DNA of 64,000 nt from NCBI GenBank assembly GCA_902618025.1, contig CACMYY010000001.1, forward strand, positions 62,001 to 126,000, given 5' to 3'. How positions within the stretch are numbered: the stretch's first letter is position 1; each line of letters opens with the position of its first letter. Made by a program: the position numbers and the translations under genes. Under the pieces are notes generated by a model. The model had not been told where the DNA came from. It ran no database searches and was given only the letters and a program-made list of their open reading frames with translations. Source of the stretch: an uncultured SAR116 cluster alpha proteobacterium (GTDB lineage Bacteria; Pseudomonadota; Alphaproteobacteria; Puniceispirillales; Marisalimonadaceae). This document shows, piece by piece, positions 26,260 through 32,631 of this stretch.

Positions 26260-27360
26260 ATGAAACGTAGAGATTTTATTAGTAAAGCAGGTGTAGGCGT
26301 TGTAGCAGGTGTTGCTGGAGCATCTACATTATCTGCACCTGCTATTGCAGGAGGTCATAAAGAGATTAATATTGTATCAACTTGGCCAAGAGATTTTCCA
26401 GGTTTAGGCTTATCAGCACAAAGATTATCAGCCAGAATTACTGAACTTTCTAAAGGAAAGTTGAAGGTAAATTATTTCGCTGCAGGTGAAAAAGTTGGAG
26501 CATTTGATGTTTTTGATGAAGTTGCATCTGGAAACTCTGAAGCTTATATCGCTGCTGATTATTATTGGAAAGGTAAACATCCAGGTTTTGCATATTTTAC
26601 ATCAGTTCCATTTGGGATGACGACCGTTGAGTGGAATGCTTGGATTAAGTTTGGTGGAGGTCAAGAACTTTGGGACGAAATGTCAGGTGAATTTGGCCTT
26701 AAAGCTCTTCCATGTGGTGGAACTGGTACACAAGCTGGTGGATGGTTCAACAAAGAAATAAATTCTAGCGAAGATTTAAAGGGCTTAAAAATGAGAATTC
26801 CAGGATTAGGTGGAACTGTTATGTCTAAACTTGGAGCTTCTCCTGTATCTTTACCTGGAGGTCAAATTTATGAAAATCTTGTTTCAGGTTCTATTGATGC
26901 TACTGAATGGGTTGGTCCTTACAATGATTATTTCTTAAAATTCTATGAAGCGGCAAAGTATTACTACACAGGTGGTATGCATGAACCTGGTTCTTGCTTG
27001 GCTATGGCTTTTAATGGAAGTTTTTGGGGAAAATTAACTGATAATGAAAAAGCTCTCATAACAGCTGCTTCAATGGAAGAGCATGCTGCTCAGTATGAAG
27101 AAACATGTGCTAAAAATGGTGAATATTTAGCCAAATTAATTAATGAACATGGTGTCAAAGTTAGGGCATTTAATGATGATGTATGGGATTCTTTCGGAGA
27201 AGCATCAGCAGAAGTTTTTGAAGAAACTAGAAACCATTCAGCATTGGCTAAAAAGATTGATACTGCATATCAAGATTTCATGAAAGAATGTGGTGGCATG
27301 ATGGCTAAATTTGAAATATCATACGTTAACCAAAGAAACAGAGTTTTAGGACTTTCTTAA
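26260..27360 (+). CDS. TRAP transporter substrate-binding protein (TakP-like, 2-oxo-acid type)
   Basis: The 366-aa periplasmic protein has a twin-arginine signal (KRRDFISKAG, cleavage after APAIAGG). The mature protein matches the TakP branch of DctP: AGEKVGAFDVFDEVASG, PFGMTTVEWNAW, the ligand arginine in LKMRIPGLGG, and DATEWVGPYND. TakP of Rhodobacter binds 2-oxo acids through Na+; other relatives bind different monocarboxylates, so the ligand is inferred. It begins the operon dctP-dctQ-dctM-GGT. A hairpin follows directly. Confidence 0.92.
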   Translation: MKRRDFISKAGVGVVAGVAGASTLSAPAIAGGHKEINIVSTWPRDFPGLGLSAQRLSARITELSKGKLKVNYFAAGEKVGAFDVFDEVASGNSEAYIAADYYWKGKHPGFAYFTSVPFGMTTVEWNAWIKFGGGQELWDEMSGEFGLKALPCGGTGTQAGGWFNKEINSSEDLKGLKMRIPGLGGTVMSKLGASPVSLPGGQIYENLVSGSIDATEWVGPYNDYFLKFYEAAKYYYTGGMHEPGSCLAMAFNGSFWGKLTDNEKALITAASMEEHAAQYEETCAKNGEYLAKLINEHGVKVRAFNDDVWDSFGEASAEVFEETRNHSALAKKIDTAYQDFMKECGGMMAKFEISYVNQRNRVLGLS

Positions 27361-27370
27361 AACAATAATG

Positions 27371-27391
27371 GGAGCCAGTATTCCTGGCTCC
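27371..27391 (+). terminator. Intercistronic hairpin after dctP
   Basis: GGAGCCAG, five loop bases and CTGGCTCC form a perfect GC-rich 8-bp stem 10 nt after the dctP stop, 12 nt before the dctQ ATG. The run after it is TAACTTTATTT, a poor U-tract, so it is more likely a partial terminator or an mRNA stabiliser than a full stop. It would keep dctP mRNA above dctQM levels. Confidence 0.7.
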
Positions 27392-27403
27392 TAACTTTAT
27401 TTA

Positions 27404-28369
27404 ATGGAAAATAAAATTTATATTTATTATCGATTATTTGGTTGGTTTATTATTGCAGCCGTATTTGCGTTTTTAGTGAATAATGTTTTACAACTAAGCT
27501 TTGGTTTTGAAAGTATATTTTCAGTCGATAATAAGTTTTCGATTACATCAATTTTTGAACTAATAGTATACTTGTTTAGTTTCATAATATCATTTATTTT
27601 GGTGTCGAAGTTTAATAATCAACCTCTAAGATTTGACTCCAAAATATTGCATAATTTTAATGTTTATTTAATTCGATCTTGTTTTTGGGTTATTTTTTTA
27701 GTTGGTATAGTTGATATTACTATATCATTCCTAAGAGTAGAGAAACTATTTGAACTTTTTTTAAGTAAGGAATTAACAAGTCAATTCACTCGTCCAGTTT
27801 TTGTGGGTATTTTTATTCATGTTCCTTTAATTATTATAGGTTTTATTATAGGTATGTTTACTAGAACTCTTGGTTTTCAATGGTTATCTCTATTAATTGT
27901 TGCAAGTGAACTTGTAATAGTGATTACTAGATTTATTTTTTCATATGAACAAACATTTATGGGTGATCTTGTAAGATATTGGTATGCTGGATTGTTTTTA
28001 TTTGCGTCAGCATATACACTTTATGATGAGGGTCATGTAAGGGTTGATATTTTATACCAAGGACTAAAAGATAAAACTAAAGGTTTAGTGAATTCAATTG
28101 GTTCGATAACACTTGGAGTATCTACATCTTTAACAATTATTTTTATAGGTTTCCATGGGAAACAATCAATAATTAATAGTCCAGTTTTAAACTTTGAAAT
28201 AACTCAACAAGGAACTGTAGGTATGTTTATCAAATATCACCTCGCATTGTTTTTAGGTATTTTTGGTTTAACTATGCTTATTCAATTTATAAGTTACTTT
28301 TTTGAATCACTAGCTGATTATTATGGCGAAAAAGGTAAAAGAATAATTGAAAATCAGATTGGTCATTAA
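27404..28369 (+). CDS. TRAP transporter small permease DctQ with extra N-terminal helices
   Basis: The 321-aa protein is nearly double the usual DctQ size (about 160-200 aa). The C-terminal half is the DctQ domain, with the alphaproteobacterial motif GDLVRYWYAGLFLFASAYTLYDEGHVRVD. The N-terminal part of about 165 residues adds roughly four membrane helices (for example WFIIAAVFAFLVNNVL and FWVIFLVGIVDITISF). No Shine-Dalgarno is visible before the ATG. The stop is 3 nt before dctM. It should form the membrane complex with DctM. Confidence 0.88.
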   Translation: MENKIYIYYRLFGWFIIAAVFAFLVNNVLQLSFGFESIFSVDNKFSITSIFELIVYLFSFIISFILVSKFNNQPLRFDSKILHNFNVYLIRSCFWVIFLVGIVDITISFLRVEKLFELFLSKELTSQFTRPVFVGIFIHVPLIIIGFIIGMFTRTLGFQWLSLLIVASELVIVITRFIFSYEQTFMGDLVRYWYAGLFLFASAYTLYDEGHVRVDILYQGLKDKTKGLVNSIGSITLGVSTSLTIIFIGFHGKQSIINSPVLNFEITQQGTVGMFIKYHLALFLGIFGLTMLIQFISYFFESLADYYGEKGKRIIENQIGH

Positions 28370-28372
28370 TTT

Positions 28373-31027
28373 ATGGAATTAATTTTTTTATTATTGTTAA
28401 TAGTTCTAATGGCAATATCCCTAGGTTCAGGTTTTCCTGTAGCCTTTGCTCTTCCAGGTTCCGCTATTATATCAATAGGAGTAGCTGCATTTTTTGGGTA
28501 TTTACTTGAAAATAATGCGGATGCTTATTTTTTCTCTGGTGGACCATCTGAATGGCTGTCAGCTGGTGTTACTAATCTCAGAGGAGTATATTGGGAAGTA
28601 GAAAGGGATACATTAATTGCTATTCCTTTATTTATTTTTATGGGCTTAATGCTTCAAAGATCTAAAATTGCTGAAGATTTACTTGTAACTATGGCACAAC
28701 TATTTGGACCTGTCAGAGGTGGTTTGGGTATATCAGTTGTGTTTGTAGGTGCATTATTAGCCGCAACCACTGGAATAGTAGGTGCAACTGTTGTAGCTAT
28801 GGGATTAATTTCTTTGCCAGCAATGCTAAGGAATAAATACTCTGCACCACTTGCTACTGGAACAATAGCTGCATCAGGAACTTTGGGACAAATAATACCT
28901 CCTTCAATCGTTTTGATAATTTTAGCTGATCAACTTGCAACAGCATCCGATCAAGCAGGTACAATGCGTAAAGCTTTGTACAAAGAAGCAACAGGCGAGA
29001 TATCGATGCCTTCGATATTTGATGTTACTTCAACTAGTGCAGGAGAAATGTTTTTAGGAGCTTTTCTTCCTGGTGTTTTACTTGTTGGTATATATATGCT
29101 TTTTATTTTAGTACTTGCATTTGTCTCACCTAAAAGTGCACCTTCAGTTCCATATGAAGGTAAAATGGACAAAAAATTTTGGCTAAATGTTATGTTGATT
29201 TTAATACCGCCATTAACATTAATTATATTAGTTTTGGGTTCAATCATTACTGGAATTGCAACAGTAAATCAAGCAGGAGCCATAGGAGCTGCTGGTGCTA
29301 TAATTATGGCAGGCTATAGGCAAACGGAAGGTTTAAAATCTTCATTATATCCAGCTTTTTTGGTTCTAATTTCTATTTTTTTACTAGCTTATGCAGTTAG
29401 TAATTACACCATGAATGTTAAATTAATAAATACTTTTGAAGATAAAATTGGAATATTTATTGGCGTTATTGGATCGACTTTACTTTTAATTGCTATCATA
29501 TGGAGTAGTTGGAGACTATTTAAATTTAACAACACCATGCAGGGTGTTATGATGGAAACAGCCAAAACTACTTCTTTAGTTTTTATAATCCTTTTAGGAG
29601 CTGCAATGCTTACAGCTGCTTTTAGAGCATTTGGAGGAGAAGAACTTGTAAAAGAATATTTAAATTCTTTACCTGGAGGTTTTTGGTCAAAATTCATAAT
29701 TGTAATGGTAGTTATTTTTATATTGGGCTTTTTTCTAGATTTCATTGAAATTGCAGTTGTAGTAGTTCCAATTGTTGCTCCTATCTTACTTGCTGATCCT
29801 TCAGCAAATATAACTGCTGTATGGCTAGGGGTCATGATTGGTCTAAATATTCAGACATCTTTTTTAACTCCTCCTTTTGGTTTCGCTTTATTTTATTTAA
29901 GAGGTGTTGCTTCAAAGGCAGTTAAAACTATCCAAATGTATAAAGGTGTAGTGCCATTTATAACTCTACAATTGATAGCTCTAGCAGTTGTAGGCTCATA
30001 TCCGTTTTTAGTAAATTATTTACCTAATAGATTAAATTTTCTTTCAGAGACGTCTCCCCCACCTAAGAATCCAAAATTACAACTGTGTACAGAAAAATAT
30101 ATGAAAGACAATATGTTAAATCCAAATAGTTTAACAAAAGTATCAATTATTAATCTATCTAAAGCAGATTTATCTTCAATGTCCCGAAAATATCAGAATA
30201 TAATTAAAAACTCTATAAGCTCAATCGAAGATGGGTTTTTAAACTTAAACAAAGCATTTGAAATTGAAGAAAAAATACAAGATCAATCTATAAATTATTT
30301 ACCACTTTTAAAAGTAGTAAGAAATAAAGAAAAAAATATTAGAGAACTTGAAACCTTAATTAAAAATAATGAAATAACCATTTCAAGACTTGATAATAAT
30401 GATAATCAAAAAATTTCATTGTTGAAGTCAGAAAATAAAAAACTAAAAAATAATATTCAAAATGAAAAGCAAGGTATTCCAGAAAATTGGTCTGATACCT
30501 ATAAAAATTTTCAGAAATTAATAAAAGAAGAAAATTTAAATAGAAACAAATATAGAAGAGCAATGGATAATTCTTATGACGAAATGACAATATTGCTTAA
30601 CATTCTATTATCAAAAACGGAATTTTATAAATTAAGAGATAAGTTTGAAAAAATAAGTAAAATATTAGAGACTAGTGAGCCAAAATCTTTATCAAATGAA
30701 ATTAAGGTTTTTTCAAAAAAGGTTTCACGTTTACCTGATAATTCAAAAATTACGTCCAAACTCTCTAAAGTATCTAGAAACTTAAAAAAGAAAAAAGTGA
30801 ATTATAAAAAAGTTATCAAAGATTTTAATCTTTCTTTCGTAGAGTATGAAAAAAAATATAATGATCTTAAAAAAATTGATAATAAAGTAATCGACGCCTT
30901 ATCAGTATTTCTTGATAGTACAAAATTTACAATAGGATTAAGACAACAGCAAAATATTCCTAAGGATATTGCTTTGTTTTTAGCAGGCTGTAAATCTGAT
31001 CATCGTGATTTGTCCTTATACTTTTGA
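28373..31027 (+). CDS. TRAP transporter large permease DctM with a C-terminal coiled-coil extension
   Basis: The first 550 or so residues are a DctM permease of the larger TakM type: SLGSGFPVAFALPGSA, IPLFIFMGLMLQRSKI, GIVGATVVAMGLISLP, TLGQIIPPSIVLIIL and LNIQTSFLTPPFGFALFYLRG are all present. From about residue 560 (TSPPPKNPK) a soluble, lysine-rich, mostly helical region of about 325 aa follows, with coiled-coil stretches (for example LKSENKKLKNNIQNEK). The tail has only two cysteines, one at each end (KLQLCTEK and LAGCKSD). Regular DctM proteins are about 430-620 aa and end at the last helix. Composition and frame are continuous, so it is not an assembly artefact by eye. Permease call firm; tail function unknown. 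Confidence 0.92.
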   Translation: MELIFLLLLIVLMAISLGSGFPVAFALPGSAIISIGVAAFFGYLLENNADAYFFSGGPSEWLSAGVTNLRGVYWEVERDTLIAIPLFIFMGLMLQRSKIAEDLLVTMAQLFGPVRGGLGISVVFVGALLAATTGIVGATVVAMGLISLPAMLRNKYSAPLATGTIAASGTLGQIIPPSIVLIILADQLATASDQAGTMRKALYKEATGEISMPSIFDVTSTSAGEMFLGAFLPGVLLVGIYMLFILVLAFVSPKSAPSVPYEGKMDKKFWLNVMLILIPPLTLIILVLGSIITGIATVNQAGAIGAAGAIIMAGYRQTEGLKSSLYPAFLVLISIFLLAYAVSNYTMNVKLINTFEDKIGIFIGVIGSTLLLIAIIWSSWRLFKFNNTMQGVMMETAKTTSLVFIILLGAAMLTAAFRAFGGEELVKEYLNSLPGGFWSKFIIVMVVIFILGFFLDFIEIAVVVVPIVAPILLADPSANITAVWLGVMIGLNIQTSFLTPPFGFALFYLRGVASKAVKTIQMYKGVVPFITLQLIALAVVGSYPFLVNYLPNRLNFLSETSPPPKNPKLQLCTEKYMKDNMLNPNSLTKVSIINLSKADLSSMSRKYQNIIKNSISSIEDGFLNLNKAFEIEEKIQDQSINYLPLLKVVRNKEKNIRELETLIKNNEITISRLDNNDNQKISLLKSENKKLKNNIQNEKQGIPENWSDTYKNFQKLIKEENLNRNKYRRAMDNSYDEMTILLNILLSKTEFYKLRDKFEKISKILETSEPKSLSNEIKVFSKKVSRLPDNSKITSKLSKVSRNLKKKKVNYKKVIKDFNLSFVEYEKKYNDLKKIDNKVIDALSVFLDSTKFTIGLRQQQNIPKDIALFLAGCKSDHRDLSLYF

Positions 31028-31038
31028 TAGGCATTATT

Positions 31039-32631
31039 ATGCTTTCTTCAAAACTTTCTTATAATTATATGATGACTGCTCCTCATCATTTAGCAACAAA
31101 AACTGGCTCTGATATTTTAAAAAACGGTGGTAACGCTGTTGAAGCAATGATTGCTTCTGCTGCAATGATATCAGTTGTATATCCTCATATGAATTCTATG
31201 GGTGGTGATAATTTCTGGTTAATTTCTGATAAAAACAAAAATGTTCATGCAATTGATTCCTGTGGTCCAGCGTCAAATAATGCAAATGTGGAATTCTATA
31301 AAAATCAAGGCTTTAGCTCTATTCCTTCACGTGGACCATTATCAGCCTTAACTGTTCCAGGTGCTGTTGCAGGTTGGAAGCTGGCATATGATTTTAGCAT
31401 TAAAAATTTAGGGGGTAAAATTCCAATAAGTAGACTTTTGCTTGATGCGGAACAAGCTGCTAAAGAAGGAATTGCAGTAACTAATACTCTAAGAAATAAT
31501 TTAAAATCAAAATTAAATCAGCTTGTTAACGTTATAGGTTTCAAAGATGTTTATTTAAAAAATGGTAAAATTCCAAATGTTGGAGATAGATTAATTATTC
31601 CAAATTTGTCGAATACTTTTTCCTGCCTAATAAAAAATGGGTTAGAGGACTTTTATTCAGGTGAAGTCTTCAGTAAGATCATTTCTGATTTAAATAATTT
31701 AGGATCTCCATTAAATTCAGACGATTTTAAAAGTTATAAAGCAACTTTTGTAGATCCCTTAGAATTAAAAATTAAAGATGCTAAATTATTTAACTTACCG
31801 CCTCCCACTCAAGGATTAGCATCAATATTAATTTTAGGTGTGCTTGATGAATTATCAATTACTTGCAAAAATAATGATGAATTAATCCATAATATTGTGG
31901 AGATAACAAAAGCAGTTTTTAAGATAAGAGATGAATATATATCTGATCCAAGATATATGAGCTCTAATGTTAGTGAATTTTTAACAAAAAATTTCATTAA
32001 AAAATTAGCTAAGGAAATTAATTTTGAAAAAGTTGCACCTTGGCCTGCTTCTTCTCCAGGTGGTGATACTGTTTGGTTAGGTGCAACCGATACATATGGA
32101 AATACTGTTAGTTTTATACAGAGTATTTATTGGGAGTTTGGTTCTGGTTTAGTTTTACCTAATACTGGTATAACAATGCAAAATAGAGGTATTAGTTTTT
32201 CTCTTGATCCAAAAAGTCATAATCATTTATTACCTGCTCGGAAACCATTTCATACAATTCAACCAGCATTAGCTCATTTCGATGATGGTAGGGTAATGTC
32301 ATATGGGACTATGGGTGGAGAAGGGCAACCTCAGACACAAGCTGCGATTTTTTATAGATATAATGTTCAAAATTTAAATCTACAAAATGCAATTAATAAA
32401 CCAAGATGGTTATTAGGCAAGACATGGGGTGAGGAAACGACCTCATTGAAAATTGAAGAACGTTTTTCTGCTGATACTTTTGATAAATTAATATCAATGG
32501 GTCATATCGTTGAAAAAGTCGGAGCATTTGAAGAAATAATGGGTCATGCTGGAGCATTAGTCAGTTACCCTTCCGGTCTTAAAGAAGGGGGGTATGACTT
32601 AAGGAGTGATGGTGCTGCTATTGGAGGATAA
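31039..32631 (+). CDS. Gamma-glutamyltransferase family protein
   Basis: The 530-aa protein matches the Ntn-hydrolase family of gamma-glutamyltranspeptidase and YwrD-like proteins: TAPHHLATKTGSDILKNGGNAVEA near the start, SMGGDNFWL, LTVPGAVAGW, then the proposed processing site and threonine nucleophile in SPGGDTVWLGATD, and PNTGITMQNRG. The ORF track start (TTG 31024) overlaps dctM; GATAGG before the ATG at 31039 favours that start. No signal peptide is visible, so it may act in the cytoplasm. The link to the TRAP operon suggests it acts on an imported compound. Confidence 0.88.
   Translation: MLSSKLSYNYMMTAPHHLATKTGSDILKNGGNAVEAMIASAAMISVVYPHMNSMGGDNFWLISDKNKNVHAIDSCGPASNNANVEFYKNQGFSSIPSRGPLSALTVPGAVAGWKLAYDFSIKNLGGKIPISRLLLDAEQAAKEGIAVTNTLRNNLKSKLNQLVNVIGFKDVYLKNGKIPNVGDRLIIPNLSNTFSCLIKNGLEDFYSGEVFSKIISDLNNLGSPLNSDDFKSYKATFVDPLELKIKDAKLFNLPPPTQGLASILILGVLDELSITCKNNDELIHNIVEITKAVFKIRDEYISDPRYMSSNVSEFLTKNFIKKLAKEINFEKVAPWPASSPGGDTVWLGATDTYGNTVSFIQSIYWEFGSGLVLPNTGITMQNRGISFSLDPKSHNHLLPARKPFHTIQPALAHFDDGRVMSYGTMGGEGQPQTQAAIFYRYNVQNLNLQNAINKPRWLLGKTWGEETTSLKIEERFSADTFDKLISMGHIVEKVGAFEEIMGHAGALVSYPSGLKEGGYDLRSDGAAIGG

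Follow-up and report, generated by a model that had tools for sequence, protein, structure and literature searches.

A TRAP transporter permease of SAR116 bacteria with a long, predicted periplasmic helical tail bearing two invariant cysteines

The stretch of DNA analysed here (the window, 64,000 nucleotides of contig CACMYY010000001.1 from an uncultured SAR116 cluster alphaproteobacterium) carries the genes of a TRAP transporter in the order P-Q-M at positions 26260-31027, an arrangement that is kept in distant families. The first gene (26260..27360, + strand) encodes DctP, a 366 aa solute-binding protein related to TakP, with a twin-arginine-type signal. It is followed by dctQ (27404..28369, +), the 321 aa product of which is about twice the usual size, and by dctM (28373..31027, +), an open reading frame of 884 codons without interruption, in which a permease is continued by a C-terminal tail. 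Beyond DctP and DctQ, no broadly recurring gene neighbour was found among the fetched loci. In the window, an open reading frame for a gamma-glutamyltransferase (31024-32631) overlaps the end of dctM, and among the fetched loci a gene of this kind lies 3' of dctM in the SAR116 group. An acetolactate synthase-like gene is present close to the operon of the tailed transporter in twelve loci (L099, L103, L109, L115, L117, L128, L129, L131, L147, L149, L153 and L162), a neighbourhood in keeping with the use of 2-oxo acids. Directly after the tailed DctM, loci L124, L150 and L161 encode another DctQ-DctM pair, of ordinary form and with sizes of 168-189 and 431-461 aa.

The permease part of DctM includes residues 1-552 (28373..30028, +) and belongs to the DctM family (Pfam PF06808, E=8.2e-61, 206.5 bits against a cut-off of 23.8). 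The score of the protein against TIGR00786 was 254 bits, slightly below the cut-off of 268; that it runs on past the last helix is a departure from the usual form of DctM and not a defining failure. Using a permease model of modest confidence, Foldseek placed SiaQM and IseQM at the top of its matches, with E=1.3e-6 and a TM-score of 0.69 on the target for 7qha_B. The sole large insert relative to SiaM, evident as a gap in the alignment with 7qha_B, covers about 65 residues (320-384; 29330..29524, +) and is predicted to form two extra transmembrane helices, modelled at 326-344 and 355-384. The permease part as such is an M subunit of the ordinary TRAP type.

The chains of solved M subunits extend no more than 4-7 residues past the position equivalent to residue 552, and all ten tail-less sister proteins described below end at this point, in agreement with the statement of the earlier note that ordinary DctM proteins finish at the last helix. 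DctM from the window continues for 332 residues beyond 552, with no hydrophobic segment detected by hydropathy after residue 550. The long tail reported in the earlier note is thus present, though it starts at about residues 553-558 (30029-30044) rather than at 30050, and amounts to 327 aa counted from S558.

As folding of the full protein gave a permease part of low confidence, the tail was folded alone. AlphaFold2 modelling of residues 558-884 from 74 sequences returned a pLDDT of 91.9 and a pTM of 0.82 (mean pLDDT 90.0-91.9 over the five models), so that tail and linker together (residues 553-884; 30029..31024, +) are confidently predicted to be all helical, as the description of the tail as helical and partly coiled-coil had anticipated. 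In full-protein numbering, the modelled helices are 567-581, which holds C572, 587-596, 605-672, 678-700 and 706-746, followed by short helices up to 864-872, with C873 directly next. Helix 605-672 (68 residues; 30185..30388, +) has a hydrophobic period of 3.46, and none of 500 shuffled sequences gave an equally high periodicity. The two helices 678-700 and 706-746 (30404..30610, +), separated by a conserved IPxxW break that includes P703 and W706, make up a return of equal length, and these predicted lengths suggest that the two arms are folded back on each other as an antiparallel hairpin. The positions of insertions and deletions are consistent with such a fold. Small ones cluster at its presumed tip (664-681), and in three sampled relatives (L023, L024 and L078) deletions of 84-87 residues span 750-836 as one block, which marks this segment (30620..30880, +) as a removable helical module. 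L023 and L024 are close kin and L078 lies elsewhere in the tree, so the module was probably lost at least twice. The tail of SAR116 locus L144 is about 53 residues shorter than usual and retains both cysteines.

Conservation within the tail is concentrated at its two ends, [AS]PPPxNPxLQxC at the start and GLRxQ...C...HRD[IL]SLxF at the C-terminus (residues 855-884; 30935..31024, +). The hairpin arms are poorly conserved, with about 25% identity where the permease has 70%, apart from V649, R650, P703 and W706 in mid-hairpin, which are invariant or nearly so. The long hairpin first proposed for this tail agrees with the predicted helix lengths but is a simplification, as there are also the removable module and the small helices, and the cysteines are situated in the conserved ends. 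The tail from the window is rich in lysine (63 K+R against 42 D+E); this basic charge is not a trait of the family, many members of which are acidic. Taken as a whole, the anatomy of the tail set out here is very probably correct.

None of the searched libraries disclosed a relative of the tail, in accord with the earlier note, which had recognised no domain in it. Pfam gave no family at E <= 0.001 for the tail of the window, and a sequence search of the PDB found no relative; likewise, Foldseek returned no match at E <= 0.001 for the tail model in the PDB and BFVD, and a search of NCBIfam found no known domain. Pfam matches among 74 members were to assorted unrelated families, none of which was matched by more than two members. 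DUF4363 was discarded as an identity of the tail, since its match (E=0.0056) is below the cut-off of that family and was read as a chance coiled-coil similarity. Generic helical or coiled-coil domains such as spectrin, BAR and EzrA-like domains share long helices with the tail but gave no Foldseek match to it (PDB and BFVD, E <= 0.001). The tail is thus a confidently predicted helical fold that lacks a match in the libraries searched.

The two cysteines noticed near the ends of the tail, Cys572 in the motif KLQLC (30086..30088, +) and Cys873 in the motif LAGC, the twelfth residue from the C-terminus (30989..30991, +), are the only cysteines of the entire 884 aa protein, and each is invariant in alignment A4 (67 of 67 sequences). 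No third cysteine occurs in 77 complete tails (25,163 residues), whereas the permease parts hold 35 at scattered positions. If cysteine were as frequent in the tails as in the permease parts, about 20 more would be expected there, and the nominal Poisson probability of finding none is 1e-9; this figure is indicative only, since the sequences share ancestry and soluble and membrane parts may differ in their rate of cysteine. Both cysteines were present in 79 of 80 fetched loci, the lone exception being truncated by a stop. This DctM (L010 / L092, SAR116 AG-321-K23) ends at 823 aa and has lost the second cysteine, and is either a decayed copy or the product of a sequencing error. A disulfide from the tail to DctP or DctQ was considered and rejected, as no invariant cysteine was found in the relatives of either partner. 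Of 21 genomes from the genus and order, 14 encode DsbB; it was not found in the assembly of the window, which is 75% complete. Judged from the sequence pattern, it is likely that C572 and C873 form a disulfide that closes the base of the tail.

The tail is not confined to this contig. Within a sample of 41 genomes, made up of the source genome of the window and 40 others from its order, the full-length permease-tail protein recurred at 53-94% identity, in several cases in a genome assembled as one contig: 20 other genomes encode the whole fusion in one frame, in three more it runs up to the end of a contig, and in one the tail is interrupted by a stop. In an even sample of the class, 32 of 385 genomes gave matches to a tail profile; for 31 of them these are in open reading frames of 838-960 aa, and the remaining one (E=1e-3, in an open reading frame of 131 aa) is probably a chance coiled-coil match. 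In a sample of the phylum (399 genomes) every convincing match was within the alphaproteobacteria, and a single match outside them (E=7.8e-4, in an open reading frame of 484 aa) was likewise judged to be due to chance. A scan for the linker motif among GTDB representatives gave at least 578 loci. The 80 that were kept are nearly all labelled as alphaproteobacteria (SAR116, Rhodobacteraceae, Nisaea, Geminicoccaceae and others), and contigs titled Granulosicoccaceae, Acidiferrobacteraceae and Flavobacteriia may be misnamed bins. The closest named relatives are SAR116 cluster genomes.

When the permease alone was used as the query, 32 places matched at 60% identity or more, in open reading frames of 838-960 aa, the odd case being a 375 aa fragment with 62% identity that extends to the edge of a small contig. 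A clean gap set these apart from the matches below 60% identity, for which the open reading frames did not exceed 737 aa and were mostly of 520-600 aa. In a permease tree from which the tail had been left out, a branch with a support of 100/100 set 23 tailed proteins apart from the rest; the sister rows of this tree were picked from the matches of the permease query, and its outgroup branches are long. The simplest reading of these sequences is that the tail had a single origin. The genome of the window also encodes two tail-less DctM paralogues (463 and 438 aa), which sit near open reading frames of the size of a small subunit (158-203 aa).

Enlargement of the permease is paralleled by that of DctQ, and this, which the earlier note had not mentioned, is the best clue to the function of the tail. 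Only residues 172-301 of DctQ matched the Pfam DctQ family. Hydropathy indicates about four extra transmembrane helices in the N-terminal extension (residues 1-160; 27404..27883, +), which in the window carries conserved polar and charged residues and had no significant match in Pfam. The possibility that it is a duplicated DctQ was rejected, as hhalign found no similarity to the DctQ half. DctQ has 305-383 aa in 64 intact relatives of the tailed clade and 171-238 aa in nine of ten tail-less sister systems; in the tenth it lies in an overlong frame. The N-terminal extension is absent from this sister clade. The association of tail and DctQ extension in one operon indicates a function inside the transporter.

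DctP was assigned to the Pfam family DctP (E=1.3e-49) and matched TakP and other ketoacid-binding proteins in the PDB. TakP holds Na+ and pyruvate by six residues (PMC1839085), all of which are kept in the window (Y102, Q158, R179, E216, W217 and E242); among relatives, Q158, R179, E216 and E242 are present in 59 of 59 sequences, and Y102 and W217 in 57 of 59. The two proteins are of nearly the same length (366 and 365 aa), with an alignment that ends at residue 343. On these sequence grounds, the transporter is probably a TakPQM-type TRAP importer, coupled to Na+, for pyruvate-like 2-oxo acids. TakP forms a stable and tight dimer with swapped helices, and those who described it suggested that the binding protein may stay attached to the membrane subunits (PMC1839085).

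The side of the membrane on which the tail lies was deduced from SiaQM, the M subunit of which is N-out/C-out and has a transport (elevator) domain that includes TM4-6 and TM10-12 (PMC9971032). The final helix of DctM from the window aligns with the final helix of the solved M subunits, and the insert, having an even number of helices (two), should not change the side of the C-terminus. For these reasons the tail should be periplasmic, as the earlier note had implied, and joined to TM12 of the moving transport domain, so that it would travel with the elevator, a point absent from that note.

We propose that the M subunit continues past TM12 into a folded periplasmic arm. A proline-rich linker would lead to a small base, built from the two conserved ends and closed by the C572-C873 disulfide, from which would emerge the long antiparallel hairpin (605-672 against 678-746) and, at its side, the removable module 750-836. 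Carried by the elevator domain through TM12, this arm would act jointly with the enlarged DctQ of the scaffold side and retain the TakP-like binding protein on the transporter; alternatively, it might couple the movement of the elevator to the docking and opening of the binding protein. As a whole, a 2-oxo-acid TRAP transporter with a disulfide-closed arm that works with DctQ on the binding protein is the best explanation at hand, put forward tentatively. Its central element, a role of the arm on the binding protein, is held at most as firmly, and the more specific version, in which a rigid, disulfide-locked elevator arm and the four-helix extension of DctQ keep a dimeric DctP in place and couple release to the stroke, is rather doubtful. 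Two observations bear on this choice: the sister clade has TakP-like binding proteins and no tail, hence the arm is not needed for such proteins, and the poor conservation of the hairpin arms is easier to reconcile with a spacer than with a surface for specific docking.

A role in oligomerisation or bracing is nearly as likely as one on the binding protein, if somewhat doubtful in itself. Here the tails of two transporters would pair, or the tail would pack on DctQ, stiffening or limiting the elevator and leaving DctP untouched. Long amphipathic helices of weak conservation are a usual mark of coiled coils, the DctQ extension accompanies the tail and is absent from the sister clade, and conservation concentrated at the base of the arm would also be accommodated; yet the tail is confidently predicted as a folded single chain, for which a partner is seemingly not needed. 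The arm might instead be a link toward the peptidoglycan or an outer-membrane porin that sites the transporter at the entry point of nutrients, as a helix of 68 residues measures about 100 Angstrom (1.5 Angstrom per residue) and would reach far into the periplasm. This is unlikely, as no known peptidoglycan-binding or outer-membrane domain was found, DctP and DctQ alone are conserved as neighbours, the length of the presumed tip varies and the conserved ends are at the base and not at the tip. A redox switch, by which the state of the periplasm would turn the transporter on and off, could explain the invariant pair in a domain otherwise devoid of cysteine; a purely structural disulfide accounts for the same pattern, the two residues do not make up a CxxC motif and the loci do not regularly encode a redox partner, so that this reading is improbable. 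Less probable still is a cytoplasmic, regulatory tail whose cysteines serve another use: it would fit the lysine-rich composition in the window, but it is opposed by the C-out topology of M subunits (PMC9971032), by the acidic tails of many relatives and by the combination of one invariant pair with exclusion of other cysteines, which suits an oxidising compartment. Finally, a frameshift or mis-join fusing an unrelated gene is excluded, as the same fused reading frame recurs in tens of independent genomes and assemblies, single-contig ones included.

How TRAP permeases are coupled to their binding proteins has been described as poorly understood (PMC9971032), and the tailed transporter is common among alphaproteobacteria of the sea, SAR116 and Rhodobacteraceae included, whose uptake of small organic acids is of importance to the carbon cycle. 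No description of a tailed DctM was found in the openly licensed literature, and the combination of tail and enlarged DctQ is a TRAP variant that was not found described there. SiaQM of Photobacterium profundum (7qha) and Haemophilus influenzae (7qe5/8thi) has the same permease fold as DctM of the window and is the source of the N-out/C-out topology and of the elevator mechanism used above; it differs in that M ends a few residues past TM12, Q has four helices and the substrate is another. TakPQM, the 2-oxo-acid TRAP transporter of Rhodobacter (TakP, 2hzk/2hzl), shares with the window the family of DctP, the six site residues, a near-equal length of P and the adjacency of the P, Q and M genes. 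In the window, DctQ has about four extra helices and DctM the 327-residue tail. The tail-less sister clade (DctM of about 525 aa, e.g. loci L172-L181) is 42-47% identical over the whole permease and, like the tailed clade, has adjacent P, Q and M genes; the DctP proteins beside eight of ten of its systems are TakP-like, with 41-49% identity to that of the window. Unlike the tailed clade, it has no tail and an ordinary DctQ. The two related clades, whose binding proteins belong to one family, thus form a natural experiment, one with the arm and the large DctQ and the other without them.
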